DNA of 64,000 nucleotides from Streptococcus mitis 17/34. Its GTDB lineage: Bacteria; Bacillota; Bacilli; Lactobacillales; Streptococcaceae. The stretch is from assembly GCA_000430305.1 (NCBI GenBank), contig ASZZ01000010.1, positions 1-64,000 of the forward strand. Direction: 5' to 3'. The number at the start of each line of letters is the position of its first letter. The stretch's first letter is position 1. Made by a program: the position numbers and the translations under genes. Under the pieces are notes generated by a model. The model saw nothing but the letters and a program-made list of their open reading frames with translations. It made no database searches and was not told where the DNA came from. Below, in pieces: positions 1 to 55,190 of this stretch.

Positions 1-346
1 TCTTTTGCCCACGTCTCAAGGCAATAGCCATATTCTCCTCAATCGTCAAACGAGAAGCTGTTCCCATCTTCGGATCTTGAAAAACACGAGCAATATCCTT
101 GGCTCTCTTTCGTACACTCAGATTTTTAATGGATTTCCCTTCCAACAAAAGGTCCCCTTCGTCCACCGATAGATTGCCAGCCAAGATATTCATCAAAGTA
201 GATTTGCCTGCGCCATTTCCACCAATCACAGAGATAAAATCTCCCTCTTCAACCTCTAAATCTAATCCTTTGAGGACATGGTTTTCATTGACCGTCCCTG
301 CTTCAAATGTCTTGTGAATATTTTCAAGTGTTAACAAGCTTGCCAT
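1..346 (-). CDS. ABC transporter ATP-binding protein, amino-acid type (partial)
   Basis: Only the first ~115 codons are inside the window; the gene runs off the left edge. It starts at ATG 346, preceded by a strong AGGAGG ribosome site. A Walker A motif GGNGAGKST is near residue 40, followed by the Q-loop segment ARVFQDP. The protein should energise the importer formed with the permease (359-1252) and binding protein (1263-2240), 12 nt downstream of the permease. The ATPase, permease and ABC_sub_bind protein set is the TrpXYZ-type family (COG1101/COG4120/COG2984), predicted to import aromatic amino acids. The substrate is inferred from family only. Confidence 0.9.
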   Translation of the reverse strand, partial: MASLLTLENIHKTFEAGTVNENHVLKGLDLEVEEGDFISVIGGNGAGKSTLMNILAGNLSVDEGDLLLEGKSIKNLSVRKRAKDIARVFQDPKMGTASRLTIEENMAIALRRGQK

Positions 347-358
347 AACTTTCTCCTC

Positions 359-1252
359 CTATTCATTTCTCAATTTCAAACCACGAATCCTTAATCTCTT
401 TTGCAACTCTGGTGCAAATAGAACCAAAGCTAACAAGATTGCATTAAAGAGACGAACCATATTTTGATCTAAATTTGGAATTTCATAGATATTTAAAATA
501 ATCAAACGGTAAACAATGGCACCGATTCCGATGGATAACAAGCGACCTCCAATGGTCAAGTCGTGTATCAATACTTCTGCAATAATGACTGCACTCAAGC
601 CAACAACGATGGTTCCTGTCCCAGAAGTCACATCTGAAAATCCATCATTTTGGGCAAATAAGGAACCACATAGGGCAATCAAACCGTTTGAAATCATATA
701 ACCAACAATTTTCATGGTGTCTACATTGACCCCATTGGCCTCACTCATAGGAATATTGTCCCCAGTCGAACGCAAGACCAAGCCAATCTCCGTTTTCATC
801 AAAAGGGTCAATATCAGACAAACAAGTAAGAGACAGGCCAAGCTGAATGAAAAAACAGCTTCTTCAGTTGTCAGCCCCAAGCTAGCCAATTGTTTAAAGA
901 CAGTTGAAGAATCTCCCAAGGAAAGATTGGGCACACTTCCCATGATTTTAATATTGATTGAATAAAGACCTGTCAAGGTCACAATCCCTGTTAAGAGAGC
1001 TGGGATTTTCATCTTGGTGTGGAGCATTCCTGATACAAAACCAGCAATCATACCTGCCAGCAAGGCAAGTAAGGTCGCAATCCAAGGATTTGTCCCTGCC
1101 TGTATCTGTGATACGACGACAGCTGCGCCCAAAGGAAAGGCTCCTTCAGCAGTCATATCCGCAATATCCAAAATACGGAAAGTCAAGTAGACTCCAATAG
1201 CCATAATCGACCATAGCAAACCTTCTGATAAACTAGATAATACAAAACTCAT
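359..1252 (-). CDS. ABC transporter permease, TrpY-like
   Basis: A 297-residue integral membrane protein with about eight or nine hydrophobic segments, starting MSFVLSSLSEGLLWSIMAIG. It belongs to the COG4120 branched-chain-like permease family that pairs with ABC_sub_bind lipoproteins. It would form the transmembrane channel of the importer. The gene begins 10 nt after the binding-protein gene ends and is followed after 12 nt by the ATPase gene, so the three form one operon on the minus strand. The substrate (tryptophan or another aromatic compound) is inference. Confidence 0.88.
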   Translation of the reverse strand: MSFVLSSLSEGLLWSIMAIGVYLTFRILDIADMTAEGAFPLGAAVVVSQIQAGTNPWIATLLALLAGMIAGFVSGMLHTKMKIPALLTGIVTLTGLYSINIKIMGSVPNLSLGDSSTVFKQLASLGLTTEEAVFSFSLACLLLVCLILTLLMKTEIGLVLRSTGDNIPMSEANGVNVDTMKIVGYMISNGLIALCGSLFAQNDGFSDVTSGTGTIVVGLSAVIIAEVLIHDLTIGGRLLSIGIGAIVYRLIILNIYEIPNLDQNMVRLFNAILLALVLFAPELQKRLRIRGLKLRNE

Positions 1253-1262
1253 CTTAAACCTC

Positions 1263-2240
1263 CTATTCCTTGCCCTCTAACTTACTAATATCAATTCCTA
1301 GTGCATCTGCCATTTCTTTATTGGTATGCAATTCCAGTTTTTCAGGTAACTCAACTGCTATATTTTCTGGCTTCTCACCTTTTAAAACACGAATCAACAT
1401 GCGGGCTGTCTGACGTCCCAGTTCTTCATAATTGGTTCCGTAGTTATACAAGCCACCAACCGCAACCATTTCTGTTGAGCCACCAAATACTGGAACCTTG
1501 TGTTTAATAGAAACCTGCTTGACTGTTTCCATGGTTGATGAAATGATATTATCCGTTGGTACAAAAACCATATCCACTTCTGCCATCAAACTCTCTGCTG
1601 CCGCCTTGACATTGTTACTGTCCAAGATTGTTTTTTCAACAACGGTAAAGCCTTTTTCTTCTAGAAGACGCTTAGCTTCATCCTTTTGGACAACTGAGTT
1701 TGGCTCGCTCTGAGTATAGAGGATTCCAATTGTTTTAGCCTTTGGCAACACTTTCTTTATCAAATTGATTTGGGTTGAAATGGCATCTGATGACTGGTCG
1801 CTTGTCCCGGTCACATTGCCCCCAGGGTGTTCTCTTGACTCAACCAACTTGGCACTGACAGGATCTGTTACAGCTGAAAAAATAACCGGTGTCGTTTGTG
1901 TTGTATTAGCCAAGCTCTGAGCAGAAGGCGTTGCAATGGCTAGAACGACATCACTAGATTCTGCTAGTTGCTGGGAAATGGTTTTTAGATTTCGTTGCTC
2001 TCCCTGTGCATTTTGCAAATCAATCTCGATATTCTTCCCTTCAATATAGCCTTGTTTAGCTAGCTCATCCACAAAACCCTCTCTAGTAGCGTCTAAGGAC
2101 TGGTGGGTAATAAACTGCGAAATACCGATACGAAAAACATCTTTTTTCTTATCCGCCTTCAACTGATGCAAACTGATCAGAGAGGTCAAGAGGATCCCCA
2201 CTACCAAGAGGGGTGCTAGTAATTTTCGAACAACTTTCAT
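1263..2240 (-). CDS. ABC transporter substrate-binding protein, TrpX-like (ABC_sub_bind family)
   Basis: A 325-residue exported solute-binding protein. An N-terminal hydrophobic segment (residues ~8-27) acts as signal or anchor; no lipobox Cys is visible, unlike AmiA and AliB. The two-lobed periplasmic-binding fold of PF04392 is recognisable from the FRIGISQF start, the VTDPVSAKLV segment and the FGGSTEMVAVGG stretch. Start ATG 2240 has AGAAGGAGTTTC upstream. Only ~26 bp separate it from a BOX repeat, and no separate promoter is visible there. Transcription probably enters from the leader RNA upstream (2423-2687). It is the first gene of the importer operon. Confidence 0.88.
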   Translation of the reverse strand: MKVVRKLLAPLLVVGILLTSLISLHQLKADKKKDVFRIGISQFITHQSLDATREGFVDELAKQGYIEGKNIEIDLQNAQGEQRNLKTISQQLAESSDVVLAIATPSAQSLANTTQTTPVIFSAVTDPVSAKLVESREHPGGNVTGTSDQSSDAISTQINLIKKVLPKAKTIGILYTQSEPNSVVQKDEAKRLLEEKGFTVVEKTILDSNNVKAAAESLMAEVDMVFVPTDNIISSTMETVKQVSIKHKVPVFGGSTEMVAVGGLYNYGTNYEELGRQTARMLIRVLKGEKPENIAVELPEKLELHTNKEMADALGIDISKLEGKE

Positions 2241-2266: not shown

Positions 2267-2418
2267 ATACTCAATGAAAATCAAAGAGCAAACTAGGAAA
2301 CTAGCCGCAGGCTGCTCAAAGCACTGCTTTGAGGTTGTAAATAAGACTGACAGAGTCAGTAACATATACCTACGGCAAGGCGACGTTGACGTGGTTTGAA
2401 GAGATTTTCGAAGAGTAT
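2267..2418 (-). repeat. BOX element, C-B-A on the plus strand
   Basis: The plus strand begins ATACTCAATGAAAATCAAAG (boxC reversed). It continues with one boxB unit (GCTCAAAGCACTGCTTTGAGG ends paired) and ends with boxA (GATTTTCGAAGAGTAT). The element lies between the leader terminator and the importer operon, so it would be part of the 5' untranslated region of any read-through transcript. Confidence 0.92.
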
Positions 2419-2422
2419 AAAA

Positions 2423-2452
2423 CAAAAAACCGCCTAGATAATACCTAAACGG
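2423..2452 (-). terminator. Attenuator-type terminator ahead of the ABC importer
   Basis: On the minus strand CCGTTTAG (2445-2452) pairs with CTAGGCGG (2430-2437), giving 8 bp with G-U pairs, followed by six T residues. Its 5' arm is also complementary to CTAAATGG at 2491-2498, so terminator and antiterminator are mutually exclusive. Confidence 0.75.
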
Positions 2453-2595
2453 ATGCTTGAAATAATCTAACAAGTTACAACTTAGCTAGTCCATTTAGAT
2501 ATTCATCTATATGGACCACAATCAAAAATCTTAGCCACATAGATACAAACAAATTGCTTGAACTGTTTGCATCCATGGTGACATGTCTACAAACA

Positions 2596-2655
2596 CTATC
2601 TAAAGTAGCTAAAGTAAAAGTTTTGATTCATCGTTACAGCTTGTTTCTTATTCAT
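2596..2655 (-). CDS. Possible 19-residue leader peptide, Phe/Tyr-rich
   Basis: The reading frame encodes MNKKQAVTMNQNFYFSYFR. Five of seven residues near its end are aromatic (F-Y-F-S-Y-F). It sits ~30 nt after the predicted transcription start of the leader RNA. The ribosome site is weak (an A-rich run with GAAA), so translation is uncertain. An aromatic-rich peptide ahead of an importer of the aromatic amino-acid type would fit ribosome-mediated attenuation, but it lacks Trp. A second small frame further on reads MSPWMQTVQAICLYLCG and also lacks a clear ribosome site. Confidence 0.35.
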   Translation of the reverse strand: MNKKQAVTMNQNFYFSYFR

Positions 2656-2687
2656 TTCTTTTTCTGCTTTCTTTTTTGATGTTTCCT

Positions 2688-2716
2688 ATCTTACCACCTT
2701 TTTCATCACCTGTCAA
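2688..2716 (-). promoter_or_regulatory. Consensus sigma-A promoter of the leader RNA
   Basis: On the minus strand TTGACA (2711-2716), a 17-nt spacer and TAAGAT (2688-2693). It is one of the best promoter matches in the window and lies just after the ami operon terminator. Confidence 0.8.
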
Positions 2717-19922: not shown

Positions 19923-20026
19923 ATACTCTTCGAAAATCTCTTCAAACCACGTCAGCTTCGCCTTGCCGTACTCAAGTACAGCCTGCGGCTAGTTTCCTAG
20001 TTTGCTCTTTGATTTTCATTGAGTAT
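19923..20026 (+). repeat. BOX element A-C (no boxB)
   Basis: boxA (ATACTCTTCGAAAATC...) is joined directly to boxC (CCTGCGGCTAG...GAGTAT) through GCCGTACTCAAGTAC. It lies between the convergent genes yidC2 and pflA. The same junction occurs in the BOX at 48334. Confidence 0.92.
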
Positions 20027-31931: not shown

Positions 31932-32128
31932 ATACTCAATGAAAATCAAAGAGCAAACTAGGAAGCTAGCCGCAGGCTGCTCAAAGCACTGCTTTGAGGT
32001 TGTAGATGAAACTGACGAAGTCAGCTCAAAACACTGTTTTGAGGTTGTGGATAGAACTGACGAAGTCAGTAACTATACCTACGGTAAGGCAACGCTGACG
32101 TGGTTTGAAGAGATTTTCGAAGAGTATT
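31932..32128 (-). repeat. BOX element C-B-B-A on the plus strand
   Basis: boxC, two boxB units (each built on CTCAAA(A/G)CACTG(C/T)TTTGAGG), then boxA ending GAAGAGTAT. It lies between the convergent KimA-like and aliB genes. A 63-codon open frame inside it is just the repeat. Confidence 0.93.
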
Positions 32129-36874: not shown

Positions 36875-37024
36875 ATACTCTTCGAAAATCTCTTCAAACC
36901 ACGTCAACGTCGCCTTGCCGTAGGTATGTTACTGACTTCGTCAGTTCTATCTGCAACCTCAAAGCAGTGCTTTGAGCAGCCTGCGGCTAGTTTCCTAGTT
37001 TGCTCTTTGATTTTCATTGAGTAT
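36875..37024 (+). repeat. BOX element A-B-C, overlapping the 3' end of the HAD gene
   Basis: boxA at ATACTCTTCGAAAATC, one boxB, boxC ending TTTTCATTGAGTAT. Its last 11 bases encode the final codons and stop of the minus-strand HAD gene (stop at 37014-37016). Confidence 0.93.
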
Positions 37025-39433: not shown

Positions 39434-39584
39434 TACTCTTCGAAAATCTCTTCAAACTATGTCAGCGTCGCCTTACAGTATGTATGGTTACTGACTGTGT
39501 CAGTTCTATCTACAACCTCAAAGCAGTGCTTGGAGTAACCTGCGGCTAGCTTCCTAGTTTGCTCTTTGATTTTCATTGCATATA
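39433..39584 (+). repeat. BOX element A-B-C, degenerate
   Basis: boxA ATACTCTTCGAAAATC, boxB with substitutions (CTGTGTCAG, CTTGGAG), boxC ending TTTTCATTGCATAT in place of GAGTAT. It lies between the convergent genes for asparaginase and ccpA. Confidence 0.9.
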
Positions 39585-48333: not shown

Positions 48334-48437
48334 ATACTCAATGAAAATCAAAGAGCAAACTAGGAAGCTAGTCGTAGGCAGTACTTGAGTACGGCAAGGC
48401 GAAGCTGACGTGGTTTGAAGAGATTTTCGAAGAGTAT
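48334..48437 (-). repeat. BOX element C-A on the plus strand (no boxB)
   Basis: boxC and boxA joined through AGTACTTGAGTACGGC, the reverse of the junction in the 19923 element. Lies 10 nt after the Cof phosphatase stop. Confidence 0.92.
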
Positions 48438-54993: not shown

Positions 54994-55190
54994 ATACTCT
55001 TCAAAAATCTCTTCAAACCGCGTCAAAGTCGCCTTGCCGTAGGTATATGTAACTGACTTCGTCAGTTCTATCCACAACCTCAAAACAGTGTTTTGAGCTG
55101 ACTTCGTCAGTTTTATCTGCAACCTCAAAGATGTACTTTAAGCAGACTGCGGCTAGTTTCCTAGTTTGCTCTTTGATTTTCATTGAGTAT
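54994..55190 (+). repeat. BOX element A-B-B-C
   Basis: boxA (ATACTCTTCAAAAATC), two boxB units (CTCAAAACAGTGTTTTGAG and a diverged CTCAAAGATGTACTTTAAG), boxC ending TTTTCATTGAGTAT. Fills most of the 270-bp gap between the rsuA-like gene and the GlsB-like gene. Confidence 0.93.

Follow-up and report, generated by a model that had tools for sequence, protein, structure and literature searches.

A conserved leader RNA ahead of aromatic amino acid import and synthesis genes in Lactobacillales is probably a Phe/Tyr leader-peptide attenuator

The window analyzed here, a stretch of 64,000 nucleotides from Streptococcus mitis 17/34, carries on its minus strand an RNA of about 260 nt that runs from a promoter to a terminator ahead of the trpXYZ importer genes, and the question raised by this locus is what such an RNA senses, if it is a switch at all. 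A regulatory signal in streptococci has reportedly been described by Panina et al. A sequence-only reading of the window had proposed an untranslated leader in which a terminator and an antiterminator exclude each other or, alternatively, a free-standing sRNA. We found that the promoter and the intrinsic terminator were both present as proposed (Table 1), with a predicted transcription start near 2681. The same was true of the 8-pair complementarity between CTAAATGG (2498-2491) and CCGTTTAG (2452-2445), in which one pair is G-U, and of the hairpin 2516-2489 that holds CTAAATGG. Furthermore, the RNA (2682-2424) folded better than 200/200 dinucleotide shuffles (z -4.83). The proposed length of the leader thus held, but its untranslated nature did not, since a 19-codon ORF lies at 2655-2596(-), about 26 nt downstream of the predicted start. 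Upstream of related leaders, a promoter-like pair was found in 169 of the 173 distinct regions, compared to 28/173 after shuffling, and the end of the -10 element preceded the ATG by a median of 33 nt.

Table 1. Coordinates of the leader RNA, its pairing segments and the neighboring features in the window
Feature	Position	Strand	Remark
Promoter TTGACA-17-TAAGAT	2688..2716	-	10/12 matches, TG preceding the -10
Leader ORF MNKKQAVTMNQNFYFSYFR*	2596..2655	-	19 codons; counterpart in 180/180 loci
Segment 1: last leader codons and stop, 5' strand of P1	2596..2613	-	P1 compensatory changes
Hairpin P2, within P1	2564..2595	-	99.7% of cells paired
Segment 2: 3' strand of P1, alternative partner of segment 3	2531..2545	-	
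Segment 3: 5' arm of hairpin 3:4	2505..2516	-	
Segment 4: 3' arm of hairpin 3:4, alternative partner of segment 5	2489..2500	-	
Intrinsic terminator (segments 5 and 6) with T run	2424..2452	-	stem 2452-2430: 10 pairs, 3-nt loop, TTTTTT
End of dispersed repeat (BOX of the sequence-only reading)	2387..2417	-	between terminator and trpX; outside the switch
trpX, substrate-binding protein, Tyr at pocket position	1263..2240	-	PF04392
trpY, permease	359..1252	-	PF02653
trpZ, ATP-binding subunit, cut by window edge	1..346	-	named by eye and position

The leader ORF of the window ends in Phe-Tyr-Phe-Ser-Tyr-Phe-Arg-stop, and a Phe/Tyr-ended counterpart was present in all 180 loci compared, the window included. 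These loci are a non-random sample in which near relatives are counted many times: 90 are streptococcal (window included) and were taken from the genomes matched by BLASTN, the weakest and a few valid matches being omitted, while the other 90 comprise the 30 best matches to the Rfam family RF02863 and 60 hand-picked from the listed RF02863 matches. Taking as start codon the in-frame ATG with the best Shine-Dalgarno (SD) score, we found that 178/180 loci have one whose anti-SD duplex reaches -4 kcal/mol or lower; the remaining two also have an ORF. In the 178 loci that are in register (147 distinct leader ORFs), codons -3, -1 and 0 always specified Phe or Tyr, as did codon -4 in 176 and codon -5 in 155 of them, whereas codon -2 was Ser/Gly in 178/178 and codon +1 was Arg in 177/178. 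Phe and Tyr interchange among the leaders, and synonymous codons vary as well. Two loci, L046 and L088, were out of register, in L088 through one extra T, and the leader ORF is present in both.

Phe and Tyr made up 26.6% of the residues in 175 distinct leaders (drawn from 242 once the named loci were added); eight proteins encoded in the window gave 7.8%. Of the 3,306 leader residues, only 2 were Trp. When all six frames of the window were scanned, 4 of 6,379 stops followed eight residues with at least five Phe/Tyr. A short ORF with a ribosome-binding site near the transcript start and rich in the relevant codons is what an attenuator would need, and this is what the locus offers, although the SD duplex of the window (-7.2 kcal/mol) is weaker than in many relatives, where it reaches about -16. 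As a side observation, the leader stop is replaced by a sense codon in ten loci (L076, L161, L163, L164, L178, L181, L189, L192, L193 and L194); these leaders end three codons later (..FRSCL*, ..FRRCL* or ..FRWCL*), and the peptide frame is kept.

We then analyzed the helices in an alignment of 58 of the 77 distinct streptococcal sequences. Paired cells amounted to 99.6% for P1 (1:2), 99.7% for P2, 83.0% for 3:4 and 94.0% for the terminator stem, with 59.0% for one additional terminator pair. For the terminated fold as a whole, 93.9% of cells were paired and 19/48 pairs were changed on both sides; this count and the covariation score each exceeded 500/500 shuffles. One P1 pair uses the middle base of codon -1, and it is A-U in 36 sequences and U-A or U-G in 20, as Phe replaces Tyr at this codon. 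The pairing between 2445-2452 and 2491-2498, for which covariation had been named as supporting evidence, belongs to the alternative helix 4:5. This antiterminator helix was paired in 98.7% of cells, its covariation score was above 500/500 shuffles, and double-sided changes occurred in 3 of its pairs, a number equalled by 1/500 shuffles. Outside Streptococcus, the segments of a locus paired better with each other in 4:5 than the cross-locus mean in 69/79 loci (Wilcoxon p 9e-11, relatedness ignored), and they ranked within the best 10% of partners in just 24/79 loci.

Terminator and antiterminator are thus mutually exclusive, as in an attenuator: helices 4:5, 3:4 and 5:6 share strands, and they covary. 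The terminator/antiterminator core of the sequence-only reading is in good agreement with these data, but that reading had missed the leader peptide and segments 1 and 2, which together turn the layout into a six-segment attenuator. The putative regulatory Phe/Tyr codons overlap segment 1, the first pairing segment. Two loci depart from the common arrangement, namely the clostridial L238, in which GCCACATAG and CTATGTGGC occur in turn along segments 3 to 6, and the streptococcal L048, which has an extra hairpin-like stretch between P1 and hairpin 3:4.

Helix 2:3, the proposed link between the leader peptide and helix 4:5, is complementary and was 88.2% paired in the 58 streptococcal sequences, in which its covariation did not rise above that of shuffles. 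In 109/140 loci, no more than 5% of shuffles paired as well, and the helix is short in one streptococcal clade (L091-L098). When segment 1 was masked in equilibrium folding, the mean upstream pairing of segment 5 rose only weakly, from 0.45 to 0.52; it increased by more than 0.1 in 54 of the 162 loci and decreased in 18. For the window, with the RNA extended through segment 5 but not yet through segment 6, the antiterminator came out as the optimal fold even when segment 1 was left free; if the switch operates as proposed, it must depend on the order and kinetics of folding during transcription. Given the small shift upon masking, equilibrium folding was set aside as a proof of the switch.

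Turning to the genes that this RNA precedes, we recorded the first of nine reference genes downstream of each of the 180 loci. It was trpX in 153, aroE in 19, aroF in 3, pheA in 2 and aroC in 1, and none was found in 2; in most of the streptococcal loci, trpX and trpY lie downstream on the same strand. Among the 90 streptococcal loci, trpX came first in 89, as anticipated for a cis-acting leader of the aromatic-type importer, and the sole locus without a downstream reference gene, L073, could be a remnant or a rearrangement. The ami genes lie upstream in close relatives only, and the RNA therefore belongs with the importer and not with ami. An sRNA of the ami operon is likewise not supported, as the RNA is present in 8-kb loci from other streptococcal groups in which ami genes are missing. 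Between amiF and the promoter of the window there is an inverted repeat (2792-2847), which could be the amiF/ami terminator. The repeat located between the terminator and trpX is a copy of a dispersed repeat, called a BOX in the sequence-only reading; its end has 7 matches within the window (2387-2417, 19924-19954, 32096-32126, 36876-36906, 39434-39464, 48406-48436 and 54995-55025), and in the relative L031 the terminator runs straight into trpX without it.

By NCBIfam, the TrpX of the window scored 333 bits against NF041285, below the cut-off of 390. Among single examples of the biosynthetic genes, DAHP synthase, AroE and AroC scored over their curated cut-offs; for prephenate dehydrogenase and dehydratase, the top-scoring model was the expected one but the score lay below its cut-off. 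Additionally, tandem trpX-like genes follow the leader in most of L049-L090, and in L171 the element is followed by a long ORF (1016 aa or more) resembling, judged by eye, an amino-acid ABC transporter with repeated binding domains.

The binding pocket offered a further view of what these importers may carry. According to PMC6816091, the position held by Gln-284 in SP1069, whose ligand is Trp, is occupied by Tyr-279 in CD0873, which binds Tyr, and by Tyr-262 in VC_1101, which binds Phe. The TrpX of the window has Tyr at this specificity position, and Ser at the one corresponding to the Tyr-specific Glu-263 of CD0873; Glu was found there in 1/144 distinct proteins behind Phe/Tyr leaders. Counting distinct proteins of 251-419 aa above the score limit, with fused and cut ORFs excluded, the pocket residue was Tyr/Phe in 144/144 first and 41/41 second, tandem binding proteins behind Phe/Tyr leaders, and Gln in 20/20 trpX paralogs behind the Trp-codon leaders of RF04312, counts that are not independent events because the agreement follows paralog clades. 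The trpX paralog of the same genome that lies directly behind a T-box also has Gln. Across paralog clades, the apparent match between pocket and codons is striking. Leader codons would thus track the importer pocket (Phe/Tyr or Trp), which may aid the annotation of proteins that are all now named TrpX. As is typical for an attenuator, the targets would serve the amino acids encoded in the leader: trpX, aroE, aroF, aroC and pheA lie downstream, and the pocket residues predict Phe/Tyr transport.

The element is widespread. By BLASTN, the region matched 101/197 Streptococcus genomes, with a core at about positions 100-228 of the query. RF02863 matched 215/395 genomes of the order, which is Lactobacillales judging from the named relatives, 98/395 over the cut-off and 52/80 genera, and it had no match in 14 control genomes. 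A model of our own, R1, built from 21 non-streptococcal rows and applied under strict filters to a thin sample, matched 4/398 genomes of the phylum. Three belong to the order, among them the genome of the window, and the fourth lies outside it; in this last one (L323), a leader MNYINNFNLKIQIFFNNHFR* precedes a gene that by eye resembles one for a sodium symporter. Named loci with the element include those of S. mitis, S. suis, S. parasanguinis, Enterococcus, Tetragenococcus and Vagococcus. It accompanies aroF-pheA-tyrA in Aliicoccus persicus, and the same leader precedes aroF-aroB-aroC in Enterococcus lactis (L245). Of 119 named stretches matching the leader pattern, 80 were examined and 65 of these had trp or aro reference genes; the remaining 15 comprised 4 clostridial stretches with other transporters, 2 that had been cut too short and 9 chance matches without a credible leader. 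Outside Lactobacillales, the element was seen in clostridial loci before sodium symporters (L256, PF00209; L238 and L271, by eye) and before a PF05525 carrier (L239).

Taken together, these comparisons make it highly likely that the RNA is a transcription attenuator that senses the supply of Phe and Tyr through the translating ribosome. With ample Phe/Tyr, the ribosome would complete the leader ORF and depart, 1:2, 3:4 and 5:6 would form, and the terminator 5:6 would halt transcription ahead of trpXYZ. With scarce Phe/Tyr, we infer that the ribosome would stall on the Phe/Tyr codons and mask segment 1. Segment 2 would then pair with segment 3, the freed segment 4 would pair with segment 5, and in the absence of the terminator, transcription would read through and the importer would be made.

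An alternative that uses the same ORF is arrest by the nascent peptide: the chain [FY][FY]F[SG][YF]FR would itself stall the ribosome, the trigger being not hungry codons but a free aromatic amino acid or a different signal. The near invariance of Ser/Gly at codon -2 and of Arg at codon +1 fits this idea, as does the sequence QLNN ahead of the motif in many non-streptococcal leaders. However, the last codons sit in P1, which is in itself a constraint on them, the ORF extends three codons beyond Arg in some loci, and Phe and Tyr interchange, and we therefore regard such an arrest as unlikely. Should the motif with its stop nevertheless be a sensor, which is unlikely, the nascent chain would arrest according to aromatic supply inside the ribosome. 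The motif and its Trp-coded counterpart (WQ[SN]W) would then make up an aromatic regulon general to Lactobacillales, with peptide, codons and mRNA helix having coevolved as a single device.

A metabolite riboswitch, in which P1-P2 would directly bind an aromatic amino acid or a precursor and thereby set the terminator, has in its favor the high conservation of the P1/P2 core and the published proposal for the gbs2033 element of S. agalactiae (PMC4448216). We consider it very unlikely, since what is conserved in this strand is the last part of an ORF, kept in frame and preceded by a ribosome site in 180/180 loci. Codons for Phe and Tyr replace each other in it, and a sister element carries Trp codons at the same place; in addition, no known class was matched. 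In this respect the sequence-only reading, which had recognized no riboswitch class, was right: no Rfam family reached its gathering score in the region. It had also argued against a T-box, and there is no RF00230 match in 2240-2860 at E values up to 10. Finally, the terminated leader could act mainly in trans as an sRNA, as the detection of E. faecium sRNA_2410 by RNA-seq and Northern blot might suggest (PMC5593968). But a terminated leader would yield the same bands, the antiterminator covaries, and the position in cis before importer or aro genes is constant; because of this constant position, the free-standing sRNA once put forward for the window loses ground, and we hold a role mainly in trans to be extremely improbable. 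Attenuation by a ribosome on the leader peptide remains the preferred reading.

How does this RNA relate to existing records? In a permissive search, the window matched RF02863 (sRNA_2410) over positions 1-196 of the 196 of the model, with 56.0 bits against a gathering score of 61 (E 2e-8). It is thus akin to this family yet below the curated cut-off; the prospect that a known family would be hit came half true, the match being clear but 5 bits short. The source of RF02863, PMC5593968, describes E. faecium sRNA_2410 as a 195-nt RNA with two transcripts on Northern blots, and assigns no mechanism to it in its available text. RF02863 shares the RNA core with the window, the end of the leader ORF included, but it is filed as an sRNA, and a leader peptide does not appear in that same text. 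The second record is PMC4448216, which in 2015 reported cis elements of 195 and 270 nt in S. agalactiae. They lie ahead of two paralogous operons, gbs1262-1260 and gbs2033-2031, a single start gives rise to both short and long transcripts, and a putative riboswitch was proposed. There, the gbs2033 element is described as conserved in Lactobacillales and as also preceding aroFBC-tyrA of E. faecium, and the word 'peptide' is absent from the main text. Judging from place, paralogy, targets and range, the present element is very probably the gbs2033 element. Both stand before one of two paralogous ABC operons and before aro genes, the difference being its interpretation as a riboswitch in the available text of PMC4448216.

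The RNA itself was thus already known, and what appears to be new is the leader peptide, the joining of the RF02863 and gbs2033 records and the match between pocket and codons. Among the papers listed by searches of an open-access library, we recognized none on a Phe/Tyr leader peptide for this element, and the available portions of PMC2494555 and PMC6431027 hold nothing on it. Our reading links two records without a mechanism and offers a testable one for both: the first is a family of sRNAs in Rfam, the second very probably the riboswitch suspected in S. agalactiae.

A sister element of similar design is RF04312, the trpB motif, to which the window itself matched weakly (29.1 bits, below the gathering score of 59). 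RF04312 matched 24/98 Streptococcus genomes, and in the loci read (20/20, L325-L344) an SD-led leader with two Trp codons (WQSW/WQNW) precedes a trpX paralog. Like the window, it thus combines a leader ORF, a hairpin and a terminator before a trpX-trpY operon (20/20), but it differs in its two Trp codons and in the Gln (Trp-type) pocket. RF04312 likewise has the appearance of a leader-peptide attenuator, and it is probably of the gbs1262 type.

In enterobacteria, the pheA, pheST and his attenuators consist of a leader peptide rich in the regulated amino acid, followed by alternating helices that end in a terminator. The present element resembles the his attenuator in its six-segment layout, with no kinship claimed, and it differs from all three in being found in Lactobacillales, in its mixed Phe/Tyr codons and in preceding genes for both import and synthesis. 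Leader-peptide attenuators have also been predicted in Firmicutes for histidine genes (PMC2965389, PMC9413887), that is, for another amino acid. The uORFC-13-1 motif (PMC8632094), with a run of Phe codons before aroF, is likewise a predicted leader-peptide attenuator; in the available text it comes from Acholeplasma and environmental sequences only. The paralogous importer of S. suis, trpX, is controlled by attenuation through a Trp T-box (PMC9382623), which, as described there, binds tRNA directly and works without a leader peptide. In the genome of the window, RF00230 has 10 matches, of which 3 exceed the cut-off. One match lies immediately upstream of the paralogous trpX, and this second trpX operon (L129, L200) is thus preceded by a T-box, which has the GGUGGUACCGCG motif. 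Overall, our data suggest that leaders sensing the translating ribosome may control the uptake and synthesis of aromatic amino acids in many lactic acid bacteria, in which T-boxes are the more familiar device.
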